NCBI RefSeq assembly: GCF_000613845.1
Contig: NZ_BAJT01000002.1
Location: 124,001 to 188,000 of the forward strand
Source of the DNA: Asaia astilbis JCM 15831
GTDB lineage: Bacteria; Pseudomonadota; Alphaproteobacteria; Acetobacterales; Acetobacteraceae
Direction of reading: 5' to 3'
Length of the DNA: 64,000 nt
Shown here: one piece after another, positions 30,392-53,017 of the stretch
Numbering within the stretch: position 1 is the stretch's first letter
Layout: the number at the start of each line of letters is the position of its first letter
Translations under genes and position numbers: made by a program
Notes under the pieces: generated by a model
Told to the model about the DNA's origin: nothing
Databases searched by the model: none
What the model saw: only the letters and a program-made list of their open reading frames with translations

Positions 30392-31178
30392 GCACGTTTC
30401 ACCGACACCTGCTTCTGGCTCTGATCACTCTGGCAAGTCTTTCGCATGCAGAGGCCTCTTCTATGGCCGACTCAATGGCCAAGCCTTCATCGACCACACC
30501 CGACCCGTCGATGGCCAATTATATCGACGACATCATGCCGGTCATGGATCAGGAAATCTGGGTTCATGGCATCCTCAACCAGTTTGAAGGACGCCTTGCG
30601 GGCACGAATTCGAATTTCCGATGGGACGGAGAAGCTGGGTAGGCGGCGATTACAACCGCCTCTGGTTGCGGTCAGAAGGTACAGTCTCCAAGGGCCGCAT
30701 GGGGGATGGCCAGCAGGAGGTGCTCTATAGCCGTTCGGTCTCAACCTATTTCGACGTTCAGGGCGGCGTGCGTGTCGATCTCGATGACGGACCGACCCGA
30801 ACCTGGGGGGCATTCGGCCTGCAAGGGCTCGCGCTCTACCAGTTTGAGGTCCAGGCGACCGCTTATGTCAGCGACCGCGGACGGTTCGCAGGGCGCTTCG
30901 AAGGGTCGTACGATATCCCGATTACGAACAGACTTATCCTGCAGCCTCAGATCGAGCTCAATCTCTACTCGAAAGCAGACAAAGGACGCGGAAATGGTGC
31001 CGGGTTATCTTCGATCGATACCGGTTTGAGACTGCGTTACGAGTTCTGGCGCAAATTCGCTCCCTATGTCGCCGTCACCTATGATGGCTACCTGCAACAG
31101 GCACGACGCTTCGCCCGCGACCGTGAGGACAGCGCTGGCTCCGTCCGGCTGACCTTCGGCATCAGAAGCTGGTTCTGA
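30388..31178 (+). CDS. copB: Copper resistance protein CopB, frameshifted
   Basis: An outer-membrane beta-barrel of the CopB/PcoB family, 263 residues after correction. It has a signal peptide (HLLLALITLASLSHAEA) and a short Met-rich linker. The barrel begins at WVHGILNQFEGR, continues GGDYNRLWLRSEG and DVQGGVRVDL, and ends with FGIRSWF. At about 30634-30637 one base is missing (GAAGCTGGG), which as read gives an early stop after DGEAG; adding one base continues into WVGGDYNRL. ATG 30388 overlaps the oxidase stop by four bases. PcoB-type proteins bind copper and work with the oxidase at the outer membrane. Sequence error is the likely cause of the break. Confidence 0.88.
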
Positions 31179-31817: not shown

Positions 31818-34800
31818 TTGATCAACAAGAAGTTCTATTTTTATTTTGCCTTTATTACCATTACGCTCAGCAGACATGACACGTTCCTTATGGGGACTGC
31901 CCTTGCCAACTGCAACGGAACTTCTGGAACAGTAACGTGCACTGGAACAACAACATCTCGCGTTGGAGCTGGCTCAGGCGACCCGATAACGACTTTAAAT
32001 GTCTCCTCCGGCGCCGTCATAAGCACGCCCGGTGTCTCCATAAGTCTGGGATCGGGAACCTCGTCGAACCAGAATGTCATCAACGTCGATGGTACGGTGC
32101 AGAATCAGGGGAGCGGCGCTGGGCCTTATGACCTCGGCCCAAATGTTATCGAATTTGGAAGCAACACGACTGTCAATGTCGGCAAAACCGGCACGATCGA
32201 GCAGCTCGGCGGAGATAGTGGCGGAGAAGCGATCAACGTCACAGGTGGCAATAATACATTCAACAACTATGGTACCATTCAGACAGCGACTTCCTCGACA
32301 TTCTGGTTTGAGGGAAAAGACTCCGCCACGTCCGATATGCGTAATACGATTGAAAATTATGGCTCAATAAGAGCAGGCAGCACGGGAAATGACACGCTCC
32401 TCGGGTTTGGAACTGCCGGAAGTATTTCCTTCACAAATCATACCGGCGCGACGGCCAAGGGCAATTTGAACTTTGGAAGCGGCGGCTCCATCTCGAACGT
32501 AGCGACGTTCTATACGGGCTCCACTTTCACGGGAAATATCTCAGGCGGCGGAAATGCCGACATCCTGAATTTGACCGGTGATGGCGGATCATCCAATCTA
32601 GGTACCGGAATTACCGGCTTCGGTACGCTTAACAAGACTGGCACCGGAACTTGGACGGTAGGCGCCAATGAGCCATTATCTCAGCTCGGTTCTTCTCTTG
32701 CGATGAACGTCGACGGCGGTACTCTGATCCTGGCCAGCGATACCTCCTCCAGCCAGACAAAGGCGACAATCAATTCAGGCGGCGTCCTACAGCTTGGCAA
32801 TGGCGGCACCGCTGGCTGGCTCGACAGTGTCTCATCGAATGACGGAACCCTTTCCTTCAACAGATCAGATACCAAGACATATTCTACCGCCATAAATGGA
32901 TCTGGCTCCATAATCCAAGGCGGAACCGGCACCACGATACTCTCTGCCAATAATGGTTTTACGGGCGACACTACAATCTCTGCCGGAACGCTTGCCCTGA
33001 GCGGGGCAGGCTCAATTTCGACGTCTTCAGGTGTCCATAATAACGGCACTTTCGACATCTCCGGAACGTCTTCTTCAAGCTCGTCAATCAAGGCATTGGA
33101 CGGGAACGGCAGCACGATCCTGGGAGACAAGACACTCGTCTTGACAGATGCCAACTCGACTTTCGGCAACACCTATTCGGGGATCATGTCAGGCCCAGGT
33201 GGGCTGACCATCGAGGGTGGGACGCAGACGCTGTCAGGGCTGATACGTACACCGGAGACACGACGGTCGCCGACAATGGACAGCTGAACCTTCCAGGGTC
33301 GATCGCATCCGCTCTGATCAACGCCGGCACGACAAACATCGATGGCGGAACGATTGGGGGAAAAACGACAAACACGGGAACCCTGAACGCAAAGAACGCG
33401 ACGCTCGCCGATATCGATAATGGGACCGGTCAGGCAACACTGACCGACAGCTCCGCCAATTCTGTGACCAACACACAAGGCGCTACCTTCGAAGCAAATG
33501 GCGGCACAATGGCGACAGCGAGCAACGCTGGCACCATGACGCTCAAAACGGGTAACACCGTTACCGGCGATCTCGCCAATAGTGGTGACCTCACGCTCAA
33601 CGATAACGCGATCAACGGAAAAACCACCAATACGGGCGCTTTAAACGCTCTGAACGCCACGCTTGCCAACATCGATAATAACGCCGGTCAGGCAACGCTG
33701 ACTAACAGCACCGCCGACGCCGTAACCAACGCACAAGGCGCGGCCTTCACAGCGACAGGCGGCACACTTGCTCAGGCAAGTAACGCTGGCACCATGACAC
33801 TCGATGCGGGCAACACTGTCAGCGGCAACGTCACAAATACCGGCGATCTCACGCTCGACGGCAGCACGATCAAAGGAACACTCGCAGCGCAGTCCGGTAC
33901 TTTTACCGTTGCACCCAAGGTGGCAAGACTTGCTCGCTTGGCTCGCGCAAACGTCAGATCGGGCTCTACATCTGCTGCTAAAAACAATGCAGAGATCGGC
34001 TCATTAAGCGGTGCGGGCAATGGCACGCTCAATGGCAGCCTCACCCTCACCGCAGCTGAGGATGACTATTCGGGGGTTATGTCAGGTCCCGGAGGGCTGA
34101 CAGTCGAGGGAGGAACGCAGACTCTATCGGGTGCGAACACCTTTACTGGCAACACGACAGTCGCGCGTAACGCGGAACTCATCCTACCAGGGTCGCTCGC
34201 CTCGGAAGTGATCAACGCGGGTACGATGACCGTCAATAGCGGCGAGGTTGGGGGGAATACCGCCAATACAGGGACCATCAACGCTGATAACGCTACATTT
34301 GCTGACATCGACAACAATGCCGGTCAGGCAGTCTTGACGAACAGCACCGCCAACACCGTAACGAACGAGCAAGGTGCCACATTCACGGCAACAGGCGGGA
34401 AATTAGCCAGTGCGAGCAACGCCGGCACGATGAATCTGACTGCCGGAAACGTTGTAACGGGTGACGTCATCAATAGCGGCGACCTGTCCCTCGACAGCAA
34501 TTCAATCGCGGGGCAAACCGTCAACACAGGGACCCTGAACGCTGAAAACGCCACGTTGACCGACCTGGATAACAATGCCGGTCAGGCAGCAGTAATCAAT
34601 AGCTCGGTCGGCACCGTGACCAACGCTCAAGGCGCAGGTTTCACAGCGGCGGGCAGCAGGCTGACCTCTGCGAGCAATGCCGGCACCATGGCACTCCAGT
34701 CCGGTAATATCGTCACTGGTAACGTCATCAACAACGGCGACTTGACACTTGACGGCAGCTCGATCAGGGGCACGCTTGCCGCACAATCGGGTACCTTTAC

Positions 34801-37800
34801 GATCTCGCCGGGGAACGCTCAGGCGGGATCGTTGAGCGGTGCAGGTAATGGCACGTTGAACGGCTCTCTGAACCTTACCAATGCAGTGGACACCTATTCC
34901 GGCGTGATGTCCGGCCCGGGAAGCCTGACGATAACCGGTGGTACACAGACATTGGCCGGTGACAATACCTATACCGGAACGACCAAGGTTTCATCGGGCG
35001 CTCTTTATGTAAACGGCAATCAGCAGGCTGCTACAGGAGCAACAACGGTTTCAGCGGGCGCACTCGTAGGCGGCTCTGGCACGATCGGGGGTGATGTTTA
35101 CATTGGCGACAACGGAACCCTCCTTCCCGGCGCAAGCAGGACAACCGTTGGTACCCTCACAATCAATGGTAATCTCACGCTCGCTGGAAATGCCGTCCAG
35201 AACTTCAGTTTCGGGCAGGCCTATACCGAAGGAGGTCAATATAATGATCTCGTGCGGGTAAAGGGGAACTTGAACTTCGGCGGCATACTGAATCTCACAG
35301 CCCCATCGAGTGGGCCGGATGTCGAGAGAATTGCTCACGGATTTGGCTTTGGCAACGGCGTTTACCGTGTCTACACCTACGGCGGCACATTGGCTGGGGC
35401 GCAGATTGCGCGACTTGGCTTGGTGTCTCCTGCGACAGGCACCACAATCGGCCTGCAGACGGCGGTCAACCACCAGATCAACCTGATTGTCAGTGATGGA
35501 ACACTAACCTTCTGGGATGGCGGAAACACCAAAAACCACGGAACTGACGGCTCGTCCGGAAACGGGACGATTGATGGCGGTGACGGCTCCTGGACCGCGT
35601 TGAACGGTGCTGGTGACAATAACTGGACCGATGCAGCAGGATCCAGAAACCAGCCTTGGGCGCAAAAGCAGTTTGCGATTTTCGAAGGGCCTGCTGGTAA
35701 GGTGACTGTTATCGGCAAAGACACCAATGGTAGCCCTGCAAAAGTCATGTTCAGCGGGATGCAATTCGCTAACAATGACGGGAGTGCTTACACGATCACG
35801 GGCGACGATCTTTACGCAACAACTGCCAGGACGGTCATCCGCGTTGGCGATGGAACAGGTCTCGGCTCCAAAATCACCGCCAACCTGGACACCGTGATTG
35901 ACGACCGCGACGTCAAGGGGGGAACATCCCTCGTGAAAAGCGACGCTGGATCGCTTGTCATCACAAAGGACCAGAGTTACTCGGGTGCCACCGAAATTGA
36001 AGGCGGCACATTGCAGCTTGGCAATGGTGGCACATCCGGCCAGATTTCCAGCAGCTCCGCGATCCATAACGATGGCGTCCTCGCAATTGATCACAGCAAT
36101 GCCGTGACCTTGGCACAGGCAATAGACGGCAAAGGCTCGCTGGTTCAGTCAGGTTCCGGGACGACGACCCTGACCGGCCAGAACAGTTATTCGGGCAAAA
36201 CCTCCATCGCTCGCGGAACTCTCAAAGGCTCCGGCCGGAGCTTCGGCTCCAGCGCGATCGACATTGGCGAAGAAGGCACTCTTGCCCTTGATGAACAAGG
36301 TCGCAGCACTTTCGATAATACCATTTCGGGAGCAGGCCTGCTGAAGAAACTCGGCACCGGGACATCAGTGCTCACTCGAGACAATGACAGTTTCAGCGGT
36401 GCGGTGGATGTTACCGAAGGCGATCTGAGCATCAATGGGTCAATGCGCTCCGCCACGTTCAACGCACGACAAGGTGGCACGCTTTCAGGCACGGGCACAC
36501 TCGGTAAGACGACGATCGGGGCCGATGGACGGCTATCGCCTGCAGGATCAGGTTCCTTGGGTGAGCTGACCGTGGACGGCAACCTGACCATGCAGCAAGG
36601 ATCGACCTTGCTGTGGACGGCGACGGTCAGCAGACGGGTCTGACCCTGCAGCATCAAGGTCACCCCTATATCAGGCTCGCCAGCGATCTCGTGAAGGTTC
36701 AGGGCGCGGTCACTCTAAATGGTGGAACAGTCGCTTTGAATGTGAAGAGCGGTTCCATTCTGAACCTCAATCGTGGGTACAAAATCCTTCAGTCAACCGA
36801 GGGTGTCACAGGCAAATTCGACCAGCTCTCCACCAACATCACGAGCGACTATCTCTATCTGTCGCCAGCGCTGATCTATTCGGGAAATGACGTTGATCTA
36901 TTATTGAATCGTAATTACGTCAGCTTTTCGGCAGCAGGGATATCGCGCAATCAGATTGCGGCAGGGCATGCGATCGACGGCCTCTCAGGAAACAACGCGT
37001 TGCCATCGGCTCTGCTAGGCCTCGACAAACGTGATGCCCGTGCGGGCCTGGATGGCAGTCTCAGGCGAATTGCACGCCTCGATTCGTTCTGCACTGATCG
37101 AAGATGCCTCCCAAATCAGGGAAGCTGTCAATGAAAGGCACGAAAGCGCAGATTGTGACGGCGGCGGCAACGCGCTGTCGATGCGCACGATTTCTGGTGA
37201 AAAGGGCTCACGCAAAGGACAATGTTACTCGGATCGTGCTGTTTTCTGGACCACGGCTTATGGCAGCTTCGGCCGTAACTACGGGAACGGAAACGCCGCC
37301 ACTCTGAAACACACCAATGCTGGTTTCCTTATGGGCGCAGATGCACCGGCATTCGAAACGGCTCGGTTCGGTGCAATGGCAGGGTACAGCAATTCGACGT
37401 TCAATGTCGGTCAGGGCCGAAACTCGTCAGGTCAGAGCAACAACATCTCTATCGGAGGATATGCCAGCAACCATTGGAATGCACTCAATGTGCGTGCCGG
37501 AGCAAGCTATACATGGAGCATGCTCAGCACACGCCGATCGGTAGATTTCAAGGGATACCAGGCTCGCGCCTCAGTGCTTCCTATCTTGCTGGCACAGCTC
37601 AGGCGTTCGGCGAAGTCGGGTACAAGATCAGCCGGAAAAATGCCCGTATCGAGCCCTTCGCAGGCATCACATACGTTAACCTTCAGACCGACAGCTTCAG
37701 AGAGCATAACGGTTCCGATGCTCTTCGCGGCAAGGCCATGACGACGGGTGTGACATACTCAACCTTCGGCGTCCGGGCTTCTGCGGATTATCGTCTCGGC

Positions 37801-38067
37801 AAGACGATGATCACCCCTAATCTGATGGTCGGCTATCGTCATGCATTCGGCCTGACAACCCCGACAAGCTCTCTCCGATTTGCGAATTTCAGCACAGTGT
37901 CTCTGGATACGGCAGGCGCACCTCTGGCAAGCGACGTCGCCATGGTGAACGCAGGCCTCAGTGTCAAACTGACTGACCGCATCGATTTTGGCTTGGTGTA
38001 TTCTGGCCAGTATGGCGTTCAGGCGATCGATTCCGGCGCAAAAGGAAGTTTCAACTTCAAGTTTTGA
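31818..38067 (+). CDS. Giant autotransporter adhesin with PATR repeats, four frameshifts
   Basis: About 2083 residues after correction. A hydrophobic N-terminus (FYFYFAFITITL, ending MGTALA) acts as signal. The passenger is a low-complexity Gly/Ser/Thr/Asn beta-helix with many autotransporter-associated repeats of the type GGTQTLSGANTFTGNTTV. Four 86-residue units (from NTGTLNA to LDGSTIKG) begin at about 33371, 33629, 34265 and 34523. The barrel (last about 270 residues, from FWTTAYGSFGRNYG to FNFKF) ends in phenylalanine, and LSGELHAS-type sequence precedes it. Frames break at about 33237, 36608, 37057 and 37561, each fixed by one base. Start TTG 31818 is uncertain. It likely mediates adhesion or aggregation. 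Confidence 0.85.
33371..34780 (+). repeat. Four 86-codon repeats arranged in two pairs inside the autotransporter passenger
   Basis: Units start at 33371, 33629, 34265 and 34523; the spacing within each pair is exactly 258 bases. Each carries the pattern NTGT-NA-NAT, DIDNNAGQA, VTN-QGA-FTATGG, ASNAGTM and GD-LDGS-I-G. Each pair is followed by TLAAQSGTFT, LSGAGNGTLNGSL and YSGVMSGPG. DNA similarity between units is obvious by eye, so the array arose by duplication of the pair as a block. Confidence 0.85.
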
Positions 38068-41363: not shown

Positions 41364-41417
41364 GGCCCATCATCCAGCGGAGATTTTCTCCGCCGGATCG
41401 ATCTCTGGTCACAGACA

Positions 41418-41447
41418 GGGGCGCTCTCGGGCGCCCTTTCTGTTTTT
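41418..41447 (+). terminator. Intrinsic terminator after pstS
   Basis: GGGCGC (41419-41424) pairs with GCGCCC (41431-41436) around a TCTCGG loop, followed by TTTCTGTTTTT. This is the clearest Rho-independent terminator in the window. A second stem, GCGGAGA/TCTCCGC, lies earlier at about 41378-41394. Confidence 0.8.
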
Positions 41448-41471: not shown

Positions 41472-42122
41472 TTACTCCATCCCGAACTCGGGGCAGGCCC
41501 TGAGACGATCGATCTGCCGGACCAGATCCGGAAGCGAAGCAGCCTGCATTTTTCGCATCAAACTGGCGCGCCGCACCTTGACGGTGATCTCACTCAGTTC
41601 GAGTTCTGCTGCCGTCTGCTTGTTGAGCAATCCGGCAACGACACGATGGGCCACATCCCGCTCTCCCGCAGTCAGCCCCGCCCATCGTTCCATCAGAACC
41701 CGGCGTTCGCCTTCGCTCGCCAGCCTCGCTTCGTCCAGAACCAGCCCCCGATGGAGCGCGTCGAGCAGATCGATATCCCGAAAGGGCTTGGTGAGAAATT
41801 CTATGGCTCCATTCTTCATCGCCTCGACGCCCATAGCGATATCTCCATGACCGGTGATGAAGATGACCGGCGTCGAGGCACCCTGCTCCAGAAGCCTCCT
41901 GTGGAAATCCATCCCCGAAAGTCCTGGCATGCGGATGTCCAGAACGAGACAGGACGGCCCCTCCACGGGCTCCGCCCTGAGATAGGAATCTGCATCGGAG
42001 AAACATCTGACATCGTAGCCGACCGACATCAGGAGGTCTTCAAGCGCCTGTCTGATGGACGCATCATCGTCGATGACCTGAACGCAGGCGTTCCGTTCTT
42101 TCAGAACACTGTTCCCCGTCAT
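41472..42122 (-). CDS. FixJ/NarL-family response regulator
   Basis: A 216-residue two-component regulator. The receiver domain has the acidic pair DDD near residue 16, the phospho-acceptor in VLDIRMPGLSG, the TGHGD switch segment and the lysine in FLTKPF. A LuxR-type DNA-binding domain follows (LTAGERDVAHRVVAGLLNKQTAAE, then helices to LMRKM). Domain order and the LLNKQTAAELELSEITVKVRR recognition region are those of the FixJ/TtrR branch. ATG 42122 overlaps the histidine kinase stop (ATGA), making it the last gene of a TonB receptor-kinase-regulator operon. Targets are unknown. Confidence 0.85.
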   Translation of the reverse strand: MTGNSVLKERNACVQVIDDDASIRQALEDLLMSVGYDVRCFSDADSYLRAEPVEGPSCLVLDIRMPGLSGMDFHRRLLEQGASTPVIFITGHGDIAMGVEAMKNGAIEFLTKPFRDIDLLDALHRGLVLDEARLASEGERRVLMERWAGLTAGERDVAHRVVAGLLNKQTAAELELSEITVKVRRASLMRKMQAASLPDLVRQIDRLRACPEFGME

Positions 42123-43188
42123 GCTTTTGCCCTCCTGACAGACCCATCCGCCCTTGCTGCAGGAATACGAAAACAGAAAGCCGTCCCCTTCTTCTGGTCC
42201 TGCATCACCCAGATCTGACCCTTGTTGGCCTCGACAAGGTTGCGGCTGATTGCAAGACCGATCCCTGTTCCGTCCTGCTTGCTGGTCCAGAATGCCTCGA
42301 ACAGATGAACGGCAAGACCGGGGGGATCCCTGCCCCATTATCCTCAATCCTGCAGCAGGCATGGTCTTCTTCATGCCAGATCCTGATCTCGACGAGACCG
42401 TCGGCCTGTTTCGTTTCCCGGATTGCATCGATCGCATTAGCTAAGAGATTACCGATAATCTGCTGGATCTGGACCGGATCGGCATGCGCAAGAACAGGCT
42501 CATGCATCTCGACAAAGCGATGAGTGATCCCGTGCTGGTCGAGCCTGGAGCGCATCATCCGCAAGACGTCCCTGACAGCGTCCCCCAACGCAAAGCGCTT
42601 CGCCTCCGGCGTGCCACCTTTGGTCAGTGCACGCATGCGGGAGAGAATGGCAGCCGCTCTGACGGCATCTTCCTCGATCCGAGTCAGCGCCATGCGCGCG
42701 CGCGCAAAATCGGGCGCAGGAAGCGAGAGCCATCGCGCGCAGGCCTGACTGCTCATTGTCACAGCGGCAAGAGGCTGATTGAGTTCGTGCACAATCGACG
42801 TTGTCAGCCCGCTCAGTGTCTGGGCTGTCGTGACGCGCGCCAGACTTTCCTGCGCACGCAGGGCGATGTCTCTCGCATGGAGCATCTTGAGCGCAAGGCA
42901 GGCAGTAATCACGATCGCCGCCGTACTCAGCCCCAGATTGATCAGCCCGCTCGGGACATTACCTCTGACCGTAAAGAAAAAGCTCACCACCGCCAGAGCA
43001 AGGCAGAGAAGGGCCAATCCCGCCAGATAACCCCGACGGATGACAAGAGCGGCATAGAGAATGACGACGGTATAGAGCACCGGCATCGCCACTTCGTAAT
43101 GCGTCAGTGTGTCTGCCACGAAAATCACCACGACAAGGGCAGCGAGACAAAGCGGATGCAAATAGCGTGAATAACGATGTGCTGGCAT
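42119..43188 (-). CDS. Membrane sensor histidine kinase, frameshifted
   Basis: A 356-residue kinase after correction. There are about five hydrophobic segments in the first 125 residues and no PAS or HAMP domain, then a HisKA domain with the phospho-acceptor in IVHELNQPLAAV at about 153. The HATPase shows the N box LLANAIDAI and the G1 box EDNGAGIP. At about 42319-42325 one base is missing; adding it continues GLAVHLFEAFWTSK into GTGIGLAIS and a normal end. The HELNQPL box is shared by FixL/TtrS/DctB-type kinases. ATG 43188 (MPAHRYSRY) is 11 bases after the TonB receptor stop. The membrane region should be the sensor. Confidence 0.82.
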
Positions 43189-43198
43189 GGCGCCCTCG

Positions 43199-45594
43199 TC
43201 AGAACTGGGTTCCGAGACTGAAAACCATCTGGCGCGGCGAGGACCGCTGCATGGTCTGCAGATCTCCCGAGAAGGGTGCCCCATCGACATTGAGGTTACC
43301 GATCATCTTACTGTTCATCAGATTATAGACGTCCAGCCGGGCGGTGAAGGGCGGGATCTTTCCCCGACGCTCAAATTTCCACGATGCGTAAGCGGTCATG
43401 TTCCAGTAATTAGGGCCCATGATGTCATTTGTGTAGGAAAACGGCCGGTTGAGGTAGACGATATTCGTTGCACCCATCTCAAGATGAGAGACATGTACCA
43501 GAGCGCTGGTCTGCAAGCTGAGCTCGGGATAACCGGGCTGCGCCTTGCCTCGCAGGTCGAAAGTCTCACCACCGACAAAGAGATCGCCACCGTAGCGAAA
43601 CCGGCTGACAGAGAGCGATTGCCGAAGGGTAAAATGCGAACCGATCGGCAGACTCGCCGCCACATCGCCGCCCCAGATATGAGAGGCGCGGACAGTACCG
43701 ACCGTATTGACCGGGCTGTGAAGCGTGCCTACCGAGGCGGAGACGAGACGGTTCTCAATCAGGCTGAAATATCCGTCCCATGAGAGGGAAATCCATTTCC
43801 GCTTGAGATGGCCACCAATTGTCACGGTCGTATCCCGCTCGGGCGCAATGCGGGCAAGGGCCTCGTCGAAACTGGCCTGGTCCGATGCGGACCAGATCGA
43901 TGCGGAATATCCGATATTGCCTCTTGGCGAGAGGCGGTAGGCGCTCTGGGTCTGAGCGGCGTCAATGAAGACATCGTCATGCTTATTGTAGCGCCACAAT
44001 GCCGATAGATGCGGCAGGAACCCGGCCTGAGAACGAAGACGCCCGCGCGGCGCCTGGTCGTCTCCGATCCCTCCTCCAGACGAGACAAAATCCACCGCCT
44101 TGAACCCTGCCCCAAGGGTCAGCGAGTCTGTGATTTTCCAGTCATCATGGAGGAAAATCTGCCGGGACTGGGTGTTCCAGGTCGAAAGATTGGCCGTCTG
44201 AAAGGCATCGCCATAAGTGTCGAAGGGACCGATGGCCTTTAACGGTGCACCCTGTCCGAGTAGCGGCTCGTTATACCACGCCTGATGCGCATCCGAATGA
44301 GCGGCTTCCTGCCAGATGCCTGCGGATAAATCATGCCGGGCCAGACGATAGCCGAGTTCGAAAGATCCGCCGAAGCGACGCACTGCCGAATGCCAGACCT
44401 GTTCAGAAAAGGGCGCTCCTGTCTCGGAGGGCGTGGTCGGATCGGAGACACTCGCATCGGTATAAGTCGTTGCACCGTAAAACACCGCCTTCCCTTTAAG
44501 ATGCGGCGTCAGGCGGAAATCATGGGTCAGAGAGCCGATCAAATCCCGGGTGACCTGACCACTATCATAGGGGGTCAGAGCAGCTCGCTCGGCACAGCTA
44601 TATCCTCCCCCGCACGGCTTATCTGCATTCTCGGGCAGCGCTGCTTTATAGGCAGTCTCATAATCCGGATAAGTGTAATCGGAACCACGCCAGCCGAGAC
44701 GGTTCAGCATATCGTGGGAGACATCATTGTAGCCCGCGATCCGAGCGCTGGATGCTGAGAAAAAGGCGTTGAAGGCCCCCCAGCCCGTCTCTTGCGTCGC
44801 TTTGACATTGCCGCGCGTCATGTACTGGCTCCCTGAGCCTGGTACTTGTCTTTGCTGATGCGCTGGAAGCCCGCCATCACCTTCGGACCGTTTGCGCCGA
44901 GCTGACCCGACTGGCCCACCAGCGTTGTCACCAATGTATTGTTGCTTCCCACGCCCTGATTGGTCGACAGGCTGTGCTTTTGCGTGGGGGCAAGCAGCAT
45001 ATATCTGATCTCGCCGCCATTATTGCTGTTCGAAAACAGATTTTCTCGTGCTGTGCCCGGGGAGACGTAAATCGAGCCGATTGTATCGGGCACACTGATA
45101 TTGAGCACATTCGTGCCGTTCAGAGTACCGAAGCTGGTTTCGTTCAACGGGATGTTTTCAAAGAGAATGCCCAGTTCGTTCATGTGGAAGCCACGAAGGA
45201 AAAGGCTGGCATCGGACTCATCCAGCCCATAGGCGTCGGACGCGGTGTAGGACACACCCGGCACCTGAGAGAGCAGCGCCAGAGGGTTTGAGCCACTCAG
45301 AACGTTGCGCCAATCGGAGCGCGTCAGAACAGAACCATTGGCGCGAGGCGTCCGATGAGCATCACGTGCAACCCTGATCGTCTCGATCGGGCTCAAAGGC
45401 TTCTTCTTCTTCGCACGTTCGGATGTCACCGGCTCCGTCCGCGCGATGCGTTCGACAGAGGCGGCTGATGCCGAAGTGGAAAAGACAGCGAGCGAGGTCA
45501 GGATCAATCCCGCAGACGAGACGCAGCAGCGCCTCAAACACAGAGACCGGTTGGTGAAATAAGCCTGCGGAAAATTTCTTACGTGATATCGCAT
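43199..45594 (-). CDS. TonB-dependent receptor heading a two-component operon, frameshifted
   Basis: About 798 residues after correction. The signal peptide (CCVSSAGLILTSLAVFSTSASA) is followed by a plug domain with RVARDAHR, LLSQVPGVSYTASDAYGLDE, LFLRGFHMNELGILFENIP and NNGGEIRYML. The barrel continues through DDWKITDSLTLGAGFK to FSLGTQF. At 44824-44825 one base is missing (GCCAGTACATGA), where QGAS should continue as YMTRGNV. The ribosome site AGGAGGG is 7 bases before ATG 45594. It resembles the receptor at 56.0 kb in its plug sequence. Kinase and regulator genes follow within 11 bases, so it may report or import the signal they sense. The ligand is unknown. Confidence 0.85.
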
Positions 45595-45668
45595 GAGACG
45601 ACCCTCCTGTTGGAGCGGTCCTAATAGACATCAAATATATGATCCATATTCTCTTTGGTTTTTCTATC

Positions 45669-45684
45669 GTATACTTTCGTATAC
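45669..45684. promoter_or_regulatory. GTATAC direct/inverted repeat upstream of the TonB receptor operon
   Basis: GTATAC occurs at 45669-45674 and again at 45679-45684, separated by TTTC. Each half is itself palindromic. The pair lies 75-90 bases upstream of the TonB receptor start. Spacing and symmetry suit a dimeric regulator, possibly GntR-like or the operon's own response regulator. Confidence 0.4.
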
Positions 45685-45831: not shown

Positions 45832-45845
45832 TTGATCTAGATCAA
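45832..45845. promoter_or_regulatory. FNR/FixK-type box
   Basis: TTGAT-CTAG-ATCAA at 45832-45845 is a perfect match to the FNR/FixK/Dnr consensus TTGAT-N4-ATCAA. It lies 167 bases upstream of the 53-residue membrane protein gene and 238 bases upstream of the TonB receptor start. It suggests oxygen-responsive control of one or both. Confidence 0.65.
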
Positions 45846-46011: not shown

Positions 46012-46173
46012 ATGAGATGGTGGGGTCCGGTTCACGCACATTACGCGATGACAGATATGCAGTCTCTGACGCTTAGCATTGGGGCGACTCTTGTCGTGAT
46101 CTCGGCTGCAAGCCTCGCGATCAGAGCCATGAAGAAGCGTCGGTTCCACGCCACGCATATCAAAACGCTCTGA
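46012..46173 (+). CDS. Small single-helix membrane protein of unknown function
   Basis: A 53-residue protein. MRWWGPVHAHYAMTDMQ is followed by one hydrophobic helix (LTLSIGATLVVISAASLAI, about 20-38) and a basic tail AMKKRRFH. It is supported as a gene by a strong ribosome site AAAGGAG 8 bases before ATG 46012 and by a promoter-type region with an FNR-like box upstream. An upstream in-frame ATG at 45865 lacks a ribosome site. I recognise no family. The tail predicts N-out, C-in topology. Confidence 0.55.
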   Translation: MRWWGPVHAHYAMTDMQSLTLSIGATLVVISAASLAIRAMKKRRFHATHIKTL

Positions 46174-46192: not shown

Positions 46193-47383
46193 TCAGACGA
46201 TCTGAGGGCGTAAGCCCCTCACGAACGCGATGAGGCCGAGCAAAAGAAGCGCAATAGCCGTCAACGGCAAGGCCGTGATGGTGGCGTGAGTGAGGATGGC
46301 TCCCCCCAGCAATCCGCCGAAAGACACGGCCAGGTTCCACGATGTGGTCGCCATTGCCTGCGCCGCATCGAGGGATGAGCCGCTTACATGCGCCATCGCG
46401 TTCTGGGTCAGCGCTGCAAAACCGCCCATAGCGAGCCCCCACAGAGTGATCGCGACGATGATGAACAGAGGATGACCCAACCCTGTGCCCAAAATCATGT
46501 TCGCGAGGGCAAAAAGAGCAATACCAGCCATAAACAGGGACGCCATATGACGATCGATCAGGGCGCCCGTTATGAACAGGCCAATGACCGAAGCGCCGCC
46601 AAAAAGCAGGAGAAGCGCGTCGATCCGCGTATTCAGTGATGAAGGCACCATAAGCGGTTCGATATAGACATAGAGAAGGCTATGGGCCGTCACGAAGCCG
46701 AAGATCAGGACGAGCGTGGCGCCTACCCCCGGTAGACGCAGCGTCTTCAGCACACTGAATTCGAAATCATCGTCAGTCCCTGGGACATCCGGAAGAATCA
46801 GGGCGGACCAGAGCACCAGAAGGGTCGAGAGTCCCCCGAGCGCGGCGAAAGCTCCCCTCCATCCGATCATCTGCCCGAGGAAAGCACTCAATGGCGCGCC
46901 GAGCACAAGGGCGAGTGTTACCCCTGACCCTGCCATGGCAATCGCACGGCCCTTTTGCCCCTTCGGCGCGAGGCGTGTCGCATAACCAGCGAACATCGCC
47001 CAGATCAAACCACCACAACAGCCTGCCAGAAAGCGGATTATCAAAGAGAGGGTGAAATTGCTGACGAACGCATTGCCGAAATTAACCACCGCAAAGCCGA
47101 CCAGCCCGGAAAGCAGCAGTTTTTTTCTCGCCATACGATGCGTGAAGGCCGCCGATGGGAGCGCTGCGAACAAGGCGCCAAGAGCAAACGCCGTGATAAA
47201 CTGTCCCCCGACAGGCTGGGAAACCCGCAATCCATCCGAAATGGCAGAAAGCAGACCTGCGGGCATGATCTCAGTCAGCAACGTCACAAAGGCAGCCAGA
47301 GCGAGAAGCAACATTGCATGGACAGGCAGAAGCTGCGGGACAGCGTGATCGGATAGTGGCAGTTCGGCGGCTTGTTCAGTCAT
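46193..47383 (-). CDS. MFS transporter, DHA1-type exporter
   Basis: A 396-residue permease with 12 predicted membrane helices. Family marks are LTEIMPAGLLSAISDGL in helix 1, the A-motif-like HRMARKKLLLSG between helices 2 and 3, and the C-motif-like AMAGSGVTLALVLGAPLSAFLG in helix 5, typical of drug/H+ antiporters and sugar efflux permeases of the AraJ type. It is the last gene of the operon with the TonB receptor, the glutamine-synthetase-like ligase and the amidohydrolase, so it could export a product or take part in uptake. ATG 47383 is chosen; an ATG at 47425 is possible. The substrate is unknown. Confidence 0.8.
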   Translation of the reverse strand: MTEQAAELPLSDHAVPQLLPVHAMLLLALAAFVTLLTEIMPAGLLSAISDGLRVSQPVGGQFITAFALGALFAALPSAAFTHRMARKKLLLSGLVGFAVVNFGNAFVSNFTLSLIIRFLAGCCGGLIWAMFAGYATRLAPKGQKGRAIAMAGSGVTLALVLGAPLSAFLGQMIGWRGAFAALGGLSTLLVLWSALILPDVPGTDDDFEFSVLKTLRLPGVGATLVLIFGFVTAHSLLYVYIEPLMVPSSLNTRIDALLLLFGGASVIGLFITGALIDRHMASLFMAGIALFALANMILGTGLGHPLFIIVAITLWGLAMGGFAALTQNAMAHVSGSSLDAAQAMATTSWNLAVSFGGLLGGAILTHATITALPLTAIALLLLGLIAFVRGLRPQIV

Positions 47384-47485
47384 GAGGCGCTCATTAACGT
47401 TCACGGCTCCTGTCTCTCGCATCAATTTCTGTTGATCGAAAGAGCCGTGAAGCGGCTACCTACGCTCCGCGACGGATACGACCGA

Positions 47486-48619
47486 TTACAGATTGTAGAT
47501 CCGTTTGGCGTTGCCCGAGCATATGGCCGTGGCAATTTGTTCCGCCTTGTTCGCAGTAACATCGCCGGTCGATATCCAGCCATTGAGGACCTCAGCCATG
47601 CCCTTCCGGAAAAGGGCTGCCCCAAGATAATGCATCTCGGCAAGGCCGAATGCATCTGAACTATAAAGCTGTTTGTAGAACGGGGTTATCTCCATGGCTT
47701 CACCGATGATCTTCTTAGCAAAGGGGCCTGCGAAGCTCTGCATGACGCCGATATCCATGTAGACGTTTGAGAACACCTCGCTCAGCCATGCTGCTTCCCG
47801 GATAAAAGGATAGCAGTGCAGCAGGGTAATCGAGACGCCCCAATCCTCCATGTCCTTGATGAAAGGCGCAAATACGGTCGGGTCGCATTTCGGCATGAAA
47901 ATATCACGATCACCAATACCGACATGCAATTGAAGGGGAAATTTATGCTTGCGGCAGAGCTCGCCCGCCTCCCAGAGAGCGAAACGAACAAGGGTTACAT
48001 CTTCGAGCCGCTTACTGGTTCCGTCAGCAAGCTGCCGTAGCCATTCATCCGCAGCAAGAAACACCTCGGTTTCTGATGGGCGGCTCTGAGGAATGTCAAA
48101 ACTCGTCCGATACGCCACGATCGACTTGAGTCCGCTTGCAAAGGCACTCCGGGCGCCCAGCGTCTCGACAAACGCCAGAGCCAGCTCGCGACCTGAGGTA
48201 ATTCCCGACCGCGCAACTTCCTCCATCAGCGCCTCGATCCTGATAACCTCTTTGGTTTGAATGCCGGTCACCGCCTTCATTTCATTGCAGTCGTATAAGC
48301 GCTCCGCGAGAAAACCTGTGTCGATCAGCATCAGATTGACACCTGTCTGACCGGCCAGCCTTCGCGCAACCTCACGGGCCCCGAGAGCCTTCCGGGCGCT
48401 GAGATAGCTGTCCGGGTCTGCGTGAGGCGCCAACCCAAGGACAGGCGCGCACCATTTTCCCATCATTAAGCCGAGAGGCTTGTCGAATTGCGTGCATCCG
48501 GGAACGGCTCGATCGCCCTCGCTCATCAGGGATTCGAACGTCGCACGATCCAGATCCTGATTTGTGACGGCGTGACAGTGGTGATCGATGAGTTCGATCT
48601 GTTCCATAAACTTGTGCAT
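47486..48619 (-). CDS. Amidohydrolase-family protein, FluG N-terminal-domain type
   Basis: A 377-residue metal-dependent hydrolase with a TIM-barrel layout: HxH in LIDHHCHAV at residues 11-19, a histidine in LQLHVGIGD, SITLLHCYPF, YMDIGVMQ, and the catalytic aspartate in YSSDAFGLAE. This pattern is that of the amidohydrolase_2 domain found at the N-terminus of fungal FluG and of plant nodulin/glutamine synthetase fusions. The adjacent upstream gene encodes the matching glutamine-synthetase-like half, 9 bases apart, so the pair is a split FluG. It probably hydrolyses an amide or gamma-glutamyl intermediate; the substrate is not known. The start ATG at 48619 follows GAGAGACAC. Confidence 0.75.
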   Translation of the reverse strand: MHKFMEQIELIDHHCHAVTNQDLDRATFESLMSEGDRAVPGCTQFDKPLGLMMGKWCAPVLGLAPHADPDSYLSARKALGAREVARRLAGQTGVNLMLIDTGFLAERLYDCNEMKAVTGIQTKEVIRIEALMEEVARSGITSGRELALAFVETLGARSAFASGLKSIVAYRTSFDIPQSRPSETEVFLAADEWLRQLADGTSKRLEDVTLVRFALWEAGELCRKHKFPLQLHVGIGDRDIFMPKCDPTVFAPFIKDMEDWGVSITLLHCYPFIREAAWLSEVFSNVYMDIGVMQSFAGPFAKKIIGEAMEITPFYKQLYSSDAFGLAEMHYLGAALFRKGMAEVLNGWISTGDVTANKAEQIATAICSGNAKRIYNL

Positions 48620-48628
48620 TTGTGTCTC

Positions 48629-49936
48629 TCAATAGGCGTGCAGATAGCGTGTGTAGAGATCGGCATCAGCAAGTTTTGACGCCTCTGCAATTTCCCATTT
48701 CTTGATATCGACGTAGACATCGAGCAGTTCTTTAGAAAACCAGCTGCACACCACGTCGTTGGCCTGCAATGCGTCCAGAGCCGCCTCCAAAGAAACAGGG
48801 AGAGGCGTGATACCGCGTGCCTCTCTCTCAGTTTCCGACAAAGAAGCCGGGTCGTGATTGATGGGAGCAGGTAAGCTCAACTTGCGGCGTATCCCGTCCA
48901 GCCCCGCTCGTGTGATGGCGCCGAGCGTCAGATAGGGGGAAGCGCATCCGTCCGAAGCTCTAAATTCAACATTGTATCCGTTCCGCTGACGCTCGGGATC
49001 ACTCGATGCTGAGGGCGCTATGCGCAGGGCTGCCTCGCGGTTTTGCACGCCAATGCATTTATAACCGCAACTCCAAGCTTGAGGTCGTAATCTGCTGTAA
49101 GAAACAGGCGTTGGCGACGAGAAAGCAACGAGTGCGTCCAGATGCTCTAGAACTCCCGCGCAGAAATGCGCTGCGATCTGGCTGAGCCCTGCGATCCCTG
49201 AGGGATCGTGTGTCACGTTTTTCCCCTCAGCATCAACGAGACTGAAATGGATATGCGCTCCATTGCCTACGGCGGTCGCCGTGGCCTTCGGCGTAAAACT
49301 CGCCCGCGTCCCAAGATCCGAGGCAACCGCCCTGATAATCTCACGCGCAATCACAATGTGATCGGCCCCAGTGATGCCAAGGCTCGGGCTACAGCTGATT
49401 TCAAATTGCCCCCGACCGTATTCCGGCTCAAGTGTTTCAGGGATAACACCTGCGTGCTGAAGGGCAATGTCGCAAGCTTCGAGGAATGCGTTTCTCTGCA
49501 ATGCGGCGCCGAGCGTAAAACCGTGCAGCGGCTCCACCGTGTCATCGAGCACGAATTCATGTTCACATGCCACCGCCAAGGTAAGGCCGGTCTCGCTCTT
49601 CAAGTCGTCCAGGGCTTGCCGATAGAACGTGCGGGCACAACAGGCCCAATCGGTATCCGGTGAGAGTTTTGAGTCGCAGATCACTGCGCTCCACCGGACT
49701 TCGCCGGTGGCATTTTTGTAGGTAAAGGCTGTCTTCGGGTCGGGTATCTGCCGCGCCTCGTCGACCGGTCCCCATGGGTTAGAAACGATATGTCCGAAAG
49801 CTGTCAGAGCTTGTCCTGCACAGGCCCAGCCGAGACCAAGCTCGCCGTAACGGGAAGCTTTATTCGTGGGAACACCGCGCGTGCGTGTCGTTCCCGTAAG
49901 GTCGTTCCAGAGAAAATATGTAATGCCTTGAGACAT
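48629..49936 (-). CDS. Glutamine synthetase-like gamma-glutamyl ligase
   Basis: A 435-residue glutamine-synthetase-family ligase. The catalytic-domain marks are CEHEFVL (metal glutamates), FEISCSPS, PKATATAVGNGAHIHFSL (GSI-like ammonia/glutamate site), SYSRLRPQAWSCG and EFRASDGCASPYLTLGA. The N-terminal beta-grasp domain is short (WNDLTGTTRTRGVP). Such non-nitrogen-assimilating homologues couple glutamate to amines, as in PuuA or FluG C-terminal domains. Context with an amidohydrolase, a TonB receptor and an MFS permease suggests processing of an imported or exported amine or amide. ATG 49936 follows AAGGTAACC. The amine is unknown. Confidence 0.78.
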   Translation of the reverse strand: MSQGITYFLWNDLTGTTRTRGVPTNKASRYGELGLGWACAGQALTAFGHIVSNPWGPVDEARQIPDPKTAFTYKNATGEVRWSAVICDSKLSPDTDWACCARTFYRQALDDLKSETGLTLAVACEHEFVLDDTVEPLHGFTLGAALQRNAFLEACDIALQHAGVIPETLEPEYGRGQFEISCSPSLGITGADHIVIAREIIRAVASDLGTRASFTPKATATAVGNGAHIHFSLVDAEGKNVTHDPSGIAGLSQIAAHFCAGVLEHLDALVAFSSPTPVSYSRLRPQAWSCGYKCIGVQNREAALRIAPSASSDPERQRNGYNVEFRASDGCASPYLTLGAITRAGLDGIRRKLSLPAPINHDPASLSETEREARGITPLPVSLEAALDALQANDVVCSWFSKELLDVYVDIKKWEIAEASKLADADLYTRYLHAY

Positions 49937-49972
49937 GATGGTTACCTTGAGCATTCAGGAGATGATGGCGGA

Positions 49973-52307
49973 CTAGAAATGATAGGTCATGCTCGCGGAC
50001 CACCAGCGAGGACGCCCCCGGTAAATCTGCGCGAAGCCGAAAAAGCTCGCGAGGTCGAAGATTGCGGTCGCGTATTTCTGGCCCGTTACGTTTTCCACGC
50101 CTGTCACCAGATCCCACCGTCGGTCGGGCGAGGTGTAGAACAGCCTGAGGTTCATCAAGCCATAGGCTTTCTGTGCTGTGTCGGGCGCATTTGTCAGTGC
50201 GAAATACTGATGAGTGACAAAATTACCGTCGACCTGCTCGGTCACAGTCCCCCACCGCGTGGGGTCGATATGCGCTACAGTAAGATTACCACTTCCTCGC
50301 GGCGCATTGGCGGGCTGGTAATCCCGCTCCCCTGTGCCGTTCAGGTCGATTTTTTTCACTGTTCCATGATTATAGGCTGCGTTCGCGGTCACGCGCCAAT
50401 GATCGCTGGGGATCCATCGGATCTCCGCCTCGGCGCCATAATACTCAGCCGGAGCGTTCGAGACCCTCTGTGTCGCGTTGCTCGTGCGCAGAGCCTGATA
50501 ATTTTTATAGTCATAATAATAGCCGGACAAATTAACCCGAACGCGATGGTCTAAGAGCTCTGACTTCACCCCGATTTCATAGTCCCTGAGTTCTTCCGGC
50601 TTGAAGGGTATCTTGCTGTTATCGACATCCGACCCAGCGTCGAGGGGCGCGTTAAAGCTGCCAGCCTTCACGCCAACATTATAACTGGCATACCCCATGA
50701 TTGCGGGAGTGAACTGATAGGTAAGCTCTGCCTTGCCGCTCCACATATTAGCATTGAGCTGGGCAAGGTTACCTACGGTTGCTCGGTTGAATGTGTAGCT
50801 GTACCCTGGATAGGCCTGATTAAACGAAAAGCCTTTCTCATCTCGGGTAAACCTGATTCCCCCTATCAGATGAACCTTGTTCGTGATCGCGTACTGCGTT
50901 TGCCCGAAACCCGCATAGGATCTCGTGTTGAGGTGATACTGATCGTAGAGTCCGCCATATAACGAACCTTCAGCACCCTGATAGTAGTCTCCAGAGATAT
51001 CGAGGAAATAAAAGCCGCCAATCCATTGGAACCGACCGGTCTTACCATCCACGTGGGTGTCGAACGAAATTTGTCTGGAGGTATTTCCGTTGAAGAACTC
51101 GAAATAGTTCACCGGCGTCGTGTCAGAATCTTCTTGGTAAGACTTTTTGATGTGTTGATAATCGAACAGATTTGTCCAGGTCACCTTATCGCTCAGCGGC
51201 GTTGTGAGGCGCGCTGTCGCCTGATAAGTCCGGACACGCACGTGCTTGGCGCTCTCGTTACCATCTGTGAGATAACCGCTACTCGGGTAGCCCAGAAAAT
51301 TGAGGTTACCGCCAATCGCACCATAGCCTGCATTCGGGCCATCAGGGATGACGTAAGCCGTCTTACTCTCCCAGCCTCCGCCCAGATTATTCATATCGCC
51401 AATTCTGCCTATGAGAAGAAGCTTTGACTCCCCTGGCAATTTGAAAAGCAACTGACCGCGTCCCGCCCGCGAATGATCGTTTTCCAGTCGCGGTCCACCA
51501 TAGCGGTTCTTCATGATCGGATTATGATCCGACGTCACGAAAGAGAGACGGCCTTCGATCTTTTTGGAGGGGATCAATGGCCCCCCCGATTGCCGCTTCG
51601 CTTCGTATCTCCCGGTAGCTCCCCAAGCCGAAGCGTAGGTACCCGTCGAGCTTGTCCGTTGGCGCAGCTGAAATGAACTGAGCGAGACCGGCAGTTGCGT
51701 TCCGACCGTAAAGCGTTCCCTGAGGTCCACGTAGAACCTCGACCCGTTCAAGGTCAAAAATCTGGAACGCCAGTCCCGTCATCTGGCTGATGTAAGCACC
51801 ATCGAGATAGATGGCTGCAGGCCCTTCCTCGTGATCTGCAAAGTCATTTTGGGTCACACCGCGGACCGACAGGGTGTACGCCCCTTGCCCGTTCGGTTGA
51901 GCCAGCTGCACGTTAGAGACCAAGGTCGCTATTTGAGATGGCGAGGTAATGTGAGCCTGCACGAGCTGCGTTCCCGAGACACTCGACATTGCGATCCCGA
52001 CGCGTTGCATATTCTCGCGCCTGCGCTGTGCAGTGACGACAATATCTTCGACACGGGAACGGCCTGACTTCTTGGACGCGTGCTTGTCCCCTGACTGAAT
52101 TACAGGCTTCAGTGCTTCGTTACCTGAAGCCGGTAAAGCGCTCAGGAAAACGCTGAAGCCTGCAATGGAGAGAAGTAGACTTTTCCGGGGTAGGTGCCGG
52201 TTATCCTGATCGTAAAAGCAAACGTTCCAGAATCGGCACAACTCAACCAGTGGGATTACCGCAATCAAGCCAGAACGAGGGCGGAACGATCGACTGTAAC
52301 TGAACAT
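49973..52307 (-). CDS. TonB-dependent receptor of the FluG-like operon, frameshifted
   Basis: About 777 residues after correction. A long N-terminal region with a hydrophobic signal (SLLLSIAGFSVFLSALPASG) leads to the plug: VEDIVVTAQRRRENMQ, SVRGVTQNDFADHEEGPA, YLDGAYIS and VEVLRGPQGTLYGRNATAG. The barrel has SSDHN-type strands and ends ASMTYHF. At 51582-51588 there are seven C; six are needed to continue AAIGGPLIPSKKIEGRL. This receptor class (TAQRRxExxQ start) is common in sphingomonads and takes up varied small molecules and siderophores. ATG 52307 follows AGGAAT. It is the first gene of the operon with the ligase 36 bases downstream. Confidence 0.85.
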
Positions 52308-53017
52308 TGGTATTCCTAGAGGTAGCGCGGAAATAAACCGCAAAGGCAACGAGCAGTCGATAGAATGGCACTTTGCCACATTCACGATCATGTTACGGTC
52401 AATATACATAAATTTAGGTTGGTCAATGCCAAACACCGATTTTTATCGTGGATAATTCTATTTCCCCGAAAATATCCTGCGTTGGGAGATAGAGTCGCGT
52501 TCGATATACGTTGGCTCTCTCCTTCTCCATGACGGGTTAGAGAAATATAGTGAATGATATCGGTAACTTATAATTTTTTCTTGAGAGTGCAGATCGCCAC
52601 TGCCTCCTCTCAGACGGCTCACTGTGGAGGGAATCTCAGCTATTTAATGTACAAAAAATTATAGTTGTTTTAGGTGGAGGGCCGCTGGCTAGGCGCAGTC
52701 GTGATAGGCGGACGCCTACTGAAAGACCTTCGCTAGGCTGAGAATGAGCACGGCAAGGCCTCGATCATTTTTGCGATTTGCCCAGCTCACAAGAGTCAAT
52801 AACCTCTGGCATTTCGCGGCTCGCAAGATCGTCGTCCGAGCACGGCTCACCCACAACACCATTCCTCAAAGAGGTATCCGGGTGTCCTACATTGGTTTTA
52901 ACAGCGTGACCCAACTCCTGAACTGCAGCACCGGCTTTTTCTCGTACCTCAAAACGACGAAGCTTCCCCACTCTGGATCAATAATCGTGTCAAAGCGGGG
53001 GGGCAAAAAGCAACGTC
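52308..53017. other. 710-base region without an identified gene between two TonB receptors
   Basis: The first 370 bases are AT-rich and should contain the promoter of the receptor at 52307. From about 52670 the composition becomes coding-like, and open frames exist on both strands (52744-53040 plus; 52765-52971 minus). Neither has a recognisable family or a good ribosome site. A remnant of a decayed gene is possible. I cannot name it. Confidence 0.35.

Follow-up and report, generated by a model that had tools for sequence, protein, structure and literature searches.

A 64,000-nucleotide stretch of the Asaia astilbis JCM 15831 genome (contig NZ_BAJT01000002.1, positions 124,001 to 188,000; hereafter the window) carries on its minus strand the genes for a TonB-dependent receptor, a histidine kinase and a response regulator, which probably constitute a self-controlling operon for a two-component system linked to magnesium. 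In the mechanism that we propose, a kinase with four helices would detect some condition at or within the membrane and phosphorylate a StyR/FixJ-type regulator. The regulator would bind a palindrome, TATAC-N4-GTATA, that lies 74 bases ahead of the receptor start, and would activate joint transcription of the receptor, the kinase and the regulator itself. The system would also belong with mgtA-mgtC, the receptor being the outer-membrane member of that response. This reading draws on genome sequences: on the order of the three genes and its conservation, the uniqueness of the site in the assembly of the window genome, the movement of the site with the genes and the co-occurrence of site and kinase.

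Magnesium limitation, or a condition that accompanies it (acid, envelope stress), is the likeliest signal, because in relatives the site precedes mgtA-mgtC or lies between mgtA and the kinase-regulator pair. Of the candidate signals, this link appears to favor limiting magnesium over the imported compound or the state of the receptor. As the kinase lacks any additional sensor domain, the signal would be perceived within the membrane. Activation rather than repression is predicted, as is the magnesium signal, from the type of regulator and from its mgtA-mgtC partners. The features of the locus are as follows (ORF, open reading frame).

45669..45684, strand not assigned: predicted operator GTATAC-N4-GTATAC (core TATAC-N4-GTATA, 45670-45683), lying 74 bases upstream of the receptor ATG
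45644..45659, minus strand: ACCAAAGAGAATATGG element between operator and start codon, at least partly common to Asaia promoters
45619..45629, minus strand: GTCTATTAGGA, partly conserved in Asaia (promoter comparison)
44821..45594, minus strand: N-terminal part of the receptor with the Plug domain, an ORF of 258 amino acids (PF07715, 25.2 bits, cut-off 23.9)
44827..44839, minus strand: receptor frameshift zone, from frame -2 to frame -1 (frame comparison)
43199..44821, minus strand: C-terminal barrel part of the receptor, an ORF of 540 amino acids (TonB-transporter-like fold in a low-confidence model of the orthologue)
42119..43188, minus strand: histidine kinase with four predicted membrane helices, HisKA and HATPase_c (printed ORF 43188-42205, then out of frame)
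42313..42325, minus strand: zone of the kinase frameshift, at six consecutive C (frame comparison with relatives)
41472..42122, minus strand: response regulator of 216 amino acids, receiver plus GerE (LuxR-type) domain, StyR/FixJ type (domain matches)
41417..41438, plus strand: weak terminator-like stem-loop in the gap between pstS and the regulator gene, which converge (six such sites in the region versus 3.9 expected)

The predicted operator and its distribution

A first-pass annotation of the window, made from the sequence alone, had placed the receptor, kinase and regulator in series and guessed at a binding site for the regulator. Both suggestions hold: the genes follow one another on the minus strand in that order (receptor 45594-43199, kinase from 43188, regulator 42122-41472), and the palindrome is present upstream of them, reading GTATAC-TTTC-GTATAC. 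Its core precedes the receptor in the window and in eight relatives (loci L022-L029), and in an alignment of these nine promoters the ten arm bases are the sole invariant columns. Four diverged receptor promoters share one five-base palindrome (gap of 0-12 bases), which is TATAC-N4-GTATA; none of 2000 dinucleotide shuffles of the four contained any shared palindrome of that kind. The exact pattern occurs once in the assembly of the window genome, at 45670, and the exact site is absent from three Asaia genomes that lack the cassette and from genome G078. Between the operator and the start codon, ACCAAAGAGAATATGG could be a third half-site and GTCTATTAGGA a possible -10 region, which a sigma-70 scan did not report.

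Gene order was compared with tblastn, and family searches covered 299 genomes, in which the best six, three and two candidates per genome were scored for the kinase, the receptor and MgtA, respectively. Receptor, kinase and regulator follow one another in this order in further loci of Asaia and Neokomagataea, a recurrence beyond chance; the contig of N. thailandica ends before any regulator and that of N. anthophila inside it. Gluconacetobacter dulcium has the rearranged order kinase-regulator-receptor, with the site between regulator and receptor although kinase and regulator precede the receptor, which indicates that the site goes with the receptor promoter and not with gene order. Among the matches listed, the receptor had a match of at least 48% identity in nine of the 299 genomes, and in seven of these the kinase adjoins the receptor and the exact site lies upstream. 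The earlier suggestion that the operon controls itself is thus supported, at the level of sequence, by a site present in all seven family genomes found with both receptor and kinase, and in G. dulcium. The kinases of these loci form one group in the kinase tree (clade A, support 100/99).

StyR/TodT-type regulators have been reported to recognize ATAAACN4GTTTAT (excerpt of PMC5874301). The Asaia site has the same 5-N4-5 geometry and the same outer bases (TA..AC/GT..TA), with the middle base of each arm changed (TATAC/GTATA), and this likeness supports the cassette's own regulator as the binder. Taken with the distribution above, the link between site and regulator appears well supported.

The same site occurs at magnesium-pump genes. 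Three Neokomagataea genomes each have a second exact site just before mgtA-mgtC, on a different contig from the kinase. In G303, a member of a third genus, the sole exact site lies between mgtA and a divergent kinase-regulator pair, with mgtC beside mgtA. G. dulcium has two exact sites in the order site-mgtA-mgtC-kinase-regulator-site-receptor. MgtA exceeds the TIGR01524 cut-off of 610.75 in all three locus types (1284, 1398.3 and 1204 bits); MgtC stays below the cut-off of 255 for equivalog NF011912 (151.3, 171.2 and 152.8 bits), and mgtC is named by resemblance and neighborhood. A narrowed pattern, TATACBAARGTATA, gave 15 sites in 11 of the 299 genomes, 11 of them at the receptor operon, at mgtA or between mgtA and the kinase, and four elsewhere. 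Among the matches listed, all eight genomes with a clade-A kinase have the narrowed site at the locus, and three of the 291 others have it somewhere. MgtA itself (E up to 1e-100) was found in 66 of the 299 genomes, again among the matches listed; the narrowed site is present in all four of those that have the kinase and in none of the 62 where the kinase was not found. No P value is given for this association, because three of the four belong to one genus and the core was narrowed after the first scan. Exact sites away from these loci (G001:C32, two in G006, a third one in the Neokomagataea genome G086, and others in G274, G243 and G296) had no convincing neighbor where inspected (all but the G086 site) and are treated as chance. 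Riboswitch control of mgtA was rejected, as six 3-kb stretches around sites gave no Rfam match at the gathering score, weaker matches not having been sought.

Several observations weigh against this reading. The reversed control pattern has 0 to 5 sites per genome, compared with 0 to 3 for the true pattern, and by an eye count has about 10 sites in the 299 genomes, compared with 15 for the narrowed pattern. A lone exact match therefore means little, and the weight falls on where the sites are. The three Neokomagataea genomes are one lineage, the 66 MgtA genomes are not independent events, some sites had been seen when the narrowed core was chosen, and a genome "without the kinase" is one in which it was not found among the candidates scored. 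The kinase tree carries a long-branch warning on its Neokomagataea, G. dulcium and G303 rows. G078 and G157 retain a receptor next to which neither kinase and regulator nor the site was found. Moreover, within Asaia the site is known only at the receptor operon: MgtA was not found in nine genomes of the genus, the window genome among them (E up to 1e-60), and the window genome has two mgtC genes, each with 16 kb of surrounding sequence that contains no site within two mismatches, so that nothing links the operon to magnesium in the window organism. Finally, the receptor and kinase are both frameshifted as printed, a matter taken up below.

The proteins and the likely signal

By Pfam the kinase consists of HisKA and HATPase_c. 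The first-pass annotation had described it as a kinase with five membrane helices and no PAS domain; the second part is borne out, since the families listed for the window kinase and for L022 and L027 are HisKA and HATPase/GHKL only, and the helices number four. A model of an orthologue (mean predicted local distance difference test score, pLDDT, 69.8) has helices at 2-28, 36-49, 52-71 and 78-123, the last heading to the phospho-acceptor domain, and the protein of the window likewise shows four hydrophobic stretches. Together these indicate four membrane helices joined by short loops, an architecture that we take to resemble intramembrane-sensing kinases. The regulator has Response_reg and GerE domains. 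Although the kinase core and the regulator resemble FixL/FixJ, the kinase is PAS-less and the regulator scores 198.4 bits against the FixJ equivalog NF006900, under its cut-off of 255. Its closest solved structure is 1yio (2.6e-47), presumably StyR, ahead of FixJ 5xso (4.7e-42). On its receiver and GerE domains and its best solved match, the regulator is classed by sequence as StyR/TodT-like.

The receptor is harder to place. Its Plug domain scores higher in the orthologue L024 (30.0 bits) than in the window, whose Pfam barrel match of 19.8 bits is below the cut-off of 30; L024 has none. A model of the orthologue is beta-rich and matches TonB transporters and porins, with a mean pLDDT of just 49.6. 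Foldseek ranks PqqU, a transporter of pyrroloquinoline quinone, first for this model, and the 50 VIA-align rows mix TonB transporters and porins within about two Z units (14.7 to 12.6). With scores so nearly equal and a poor model, no ligand is inferred, and the model speaks only for a general TonB-transporter fold. The clade-A receptor exceeds no curated receptor-family cut-off; the model for the vitamin B12 receptor alone matched, and weakly (22.1 bits, cut-off 599.7). When solved sequences were searched by profile, the matches listed (E up to 1) included no TonB receptor, which is no evidence against the family. No STN signaling domain was found, Plug being the only domain listed for L024 (E up to 0.1) and for the window N-terminal part (E up to 0.001), and a receptor of the sigma/anti-sigma type (a FecA/FpvA-like transducer) was rejected for that reason. 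In Neokomagataea locus L036 (3509-8008), genes for a GMC dehydrogenase, an HbpS-like protein, an OprB-like porin and a shikimate-dehydrogenase-like protein precede the receptor operon, possibly a hint of the substrate.

A somewhat unlikely alternative is that the system works by ligand induction as PfeS/PfeR does: the receptor would import a siderophore or cofactor, the kinase would detect it in the periplasm or membrane, the regulator would raise the receptor, and the sites at mgtA-mgtC would have been recruited later. There is precedent in Pseudomonas aeruginosa, where PfeS/PfeR controls the TonB receptor PfeA and the kinase responds to periplasmic ferric enterobactin, and PirS/PirR controls PirA (excerpt of PMC8001512). 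Further backing comes from a sister module in Gluconacetobacter (kinase clade B, support 100/99, with a long-branch warning on the tree). In four loci (L084, L085, L087 and L088) clade-B kinase-regulators are divergent from another TonB receptor of about 830 amino acids, and between kinase and receptor lies a related site, with one mismatch in three loci and three mismatches in L088. The two clade-B receptors that were scanned resemble the catecholate siderophore receptor Fiu, below its cut-off, and one clade-B locus has an Fe2+-dependent dioxygenase over cut-off. The combination of a receptor, a small membrane kinase and a StyR/FixJ-type regulator is, as judged from these loci, a recurring module. 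Its occurrence beside a Fiu-like receptor suggests that the kinase family can serve iron uptake, and makes it less likely that magnesium as such is what the family senses; both points count against the magnesium-linked reading. On the other side, the loops of the clade-A kinase are short, no periplasmic ligand domain was found in it, and its receptor passes no curated family. Furthermore, G303 has the kinase-regulator pair with mgtA and mgtC, and the search found no receptor orthologue in that genome, nor was one found in the surrounding 18 kb.

Beside the clade-B site, between kinase and receptor, the same four loci share a conserved stretch around TGCAATTGTGA..AATTC.CATTTGTG, which we take to be a candidate Fur-type box; if so, it would fit an iron-regulated siderophore receptor.

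The magnesium-linked reading has a stronger form, in which the TonB receptor would import magnesium or a magnesium complex by energized transport, under the control of a new intramembrane-sensing two-component system for magnesium; within this branch of the acetic acid bacteria that system would govern mgtA-mgtC as well. We regard this form as quite unlikely.

Reading frames and the remaining alternatives

The first-pass annotation took the genes as intact, with 11 bases between the receptor stop and the kinase start and a four-base overlap of kinase and regulator. The spacing is indeed close, at 10 bases; the ATGA overlap exists in the shifted frame and not in the printed kinase frame; and the printed receptor and kinase have one frameshift each. 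The receptor is thereby divided into its two ORFs, and the kinase loses its frame at the run of six C and ends at 42205, with the C-terminal part of the ATPase domain missing. Programmed frameshifting in the kinase was ruled out, relatives reading through that place in one frame.

The frameshifts are likelier to be sequencing or assembly indels than marks of a dead operon, judging from the sequence around them. Four of the 12 window genes that could be compared are split relative to the ORFs of relatives (the doubtful fourth was checked separately), as is an mgtC elsewhere in the genome, and these splits favor draft errors. The receptor is one ORF in all five other Asaia genomes with an orthologue. 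The kinase is one ORF in eight of nine further loci, and the exception, that of A. prunellae, has its split at a different place. The genome (3.14 Mb in 49 contigs) is 88.77% complete; among the named relatives found, Asaia platycodi and A. prunellae are the closest. That the operon is decaying, with real frameshifts having killed receptor and kinase in this strain, seems very unlikely. In its favor are the breaks in both genes as printed and similar breaks in relatives, namely in the G157 receptor orthologue (L032), which lies in several frames, the A. platycodi regulator and the A. prunellae kinase. Opposing it are the position of the kinase break at a C run, the other split genes in the draft, and the preservation of the regulator, the operator and the spacing.

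The other split window genes are at 21533-24279 and 30334-31175. The window also contains a long, repeat-rich, autotransporter/adhesin-like stretch (33464-38067, named by eye) with several overlapping ORFs, and its broken state fits an assembly with many frameshifts.

It is very improbable that the palindrome belongs to another regulator and is linked to the kinase-regulator pair as hitch-hiking neighboring DNA: although the link is known from sequence, palindromes are common to many operators and the reversed control is about equally frequent, the Neokomagataea mgtA site is on a separate contig from the kinase, the narrowed site is missing from 62 of 62 MgtA genomes where no kinase was found, and the site has StyR/TodT geometry.

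Relation to known systems and neighboring features

The coupling of a TonB receptor to a membrane kinase was described in the first-pass annotation as less usual. The coupling itself is supported by sequence; it is less unusual than claimed, because PfeS/PfeR-PfeA and PirS/PirR-PirA, as described in PMC8001512, likewise place a TonB receptor under a two-component system with a membrane kinase. The Asaia kinase differs from PfeS in its four helices and short loops, its StyR/FixJ-type partner and the presence in relatives of magnesium-pump genes with the same site. Similarly, joint control of a TonB receptor and mgtA is not in itself new. In Pectobacterium versatile, RNA-seq of a phoP mutant indicated that PhoPQ activates mgtA and a TonB-dependent siderophore receptor (excerpt of PMC7843439), so that both come under one two-component system. 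As that excerpt describes it, PhoPQ is global (more than 100 genes), its receptor is one of several iron genes and its operator is another one. Here, a small dedicated regulon is predicted, and the receptor is in one operon with kinase and regulator. Compared with StyR/TodT systems, the partner kinase is small, membrane-bound and PAS-less, and the predicted targets are the receptor and mgtA-mgtC, not aromatic degradation.

A TonB receptor has also been placed in a regulon for a metal other than iron, that of MntR, a one-component regulator. This module, from Stenotrophomonas maltophilia, differs in concerning manganese (excerpt of PMC13217887). In Francisella tularensis, FmvB is a magnesium-responsive outer-membrane protein with a proposed role in magnesium uptake; the excerpt of PMC4981453 does not call it a TonB-dependent receptor or describe its regulator. 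A secretome study of Asaia names TonB receptors, none of which its excerpt links to this operon (PMC12502724). The open-access papers searched yielded none in which a FixJ/StyR-type system unites a TonB receptor with mgtA-mgtC, and none describing joint control of this kind by a two-component system in acetic acid bacteria.

The coupling is thus a variant of a known sort; what is new, and open to test, is the magnesium link seen in relatives. If correct, it would add a small dedicated system in which a StyR-type regulator and a four-helix kinase control mgtA-mgtC and the receptor operon to which they belong. Should magnesium or one of its complexes prove to be what the receptor carries, the cargoes of TonB transport would gain a new member. 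The operator is short, is unique in the assembly of the window genome and predicts targets, which makes the claim testable.

Two further features lie next to the operon. Window positions 46193-52436 hold genes for a major facilitator superfamily transporter, an amidohydrolase, a glutamine-synthetase-like protein (resembling gamma-glutamylputrescine synthetase, under cut-off) and a TonB receptor that appears as a pair of overlapping ORFs, possibly a pathway for an amine or glutamyl compound. At 45832-45845 there is a box, TTGAT-N4-ATCAA, which we take to be the FNR/FixK-type consensus; the window has one such box versus 0.14 expected, and at least one appeared in 13 of 100 shuffles. The box is also present in L022 and L023, and lies upstream of a conserved small membrane-like protein of 53 amino acids (MRWWG..., 46012-46173) encoded divergently from the receptor.

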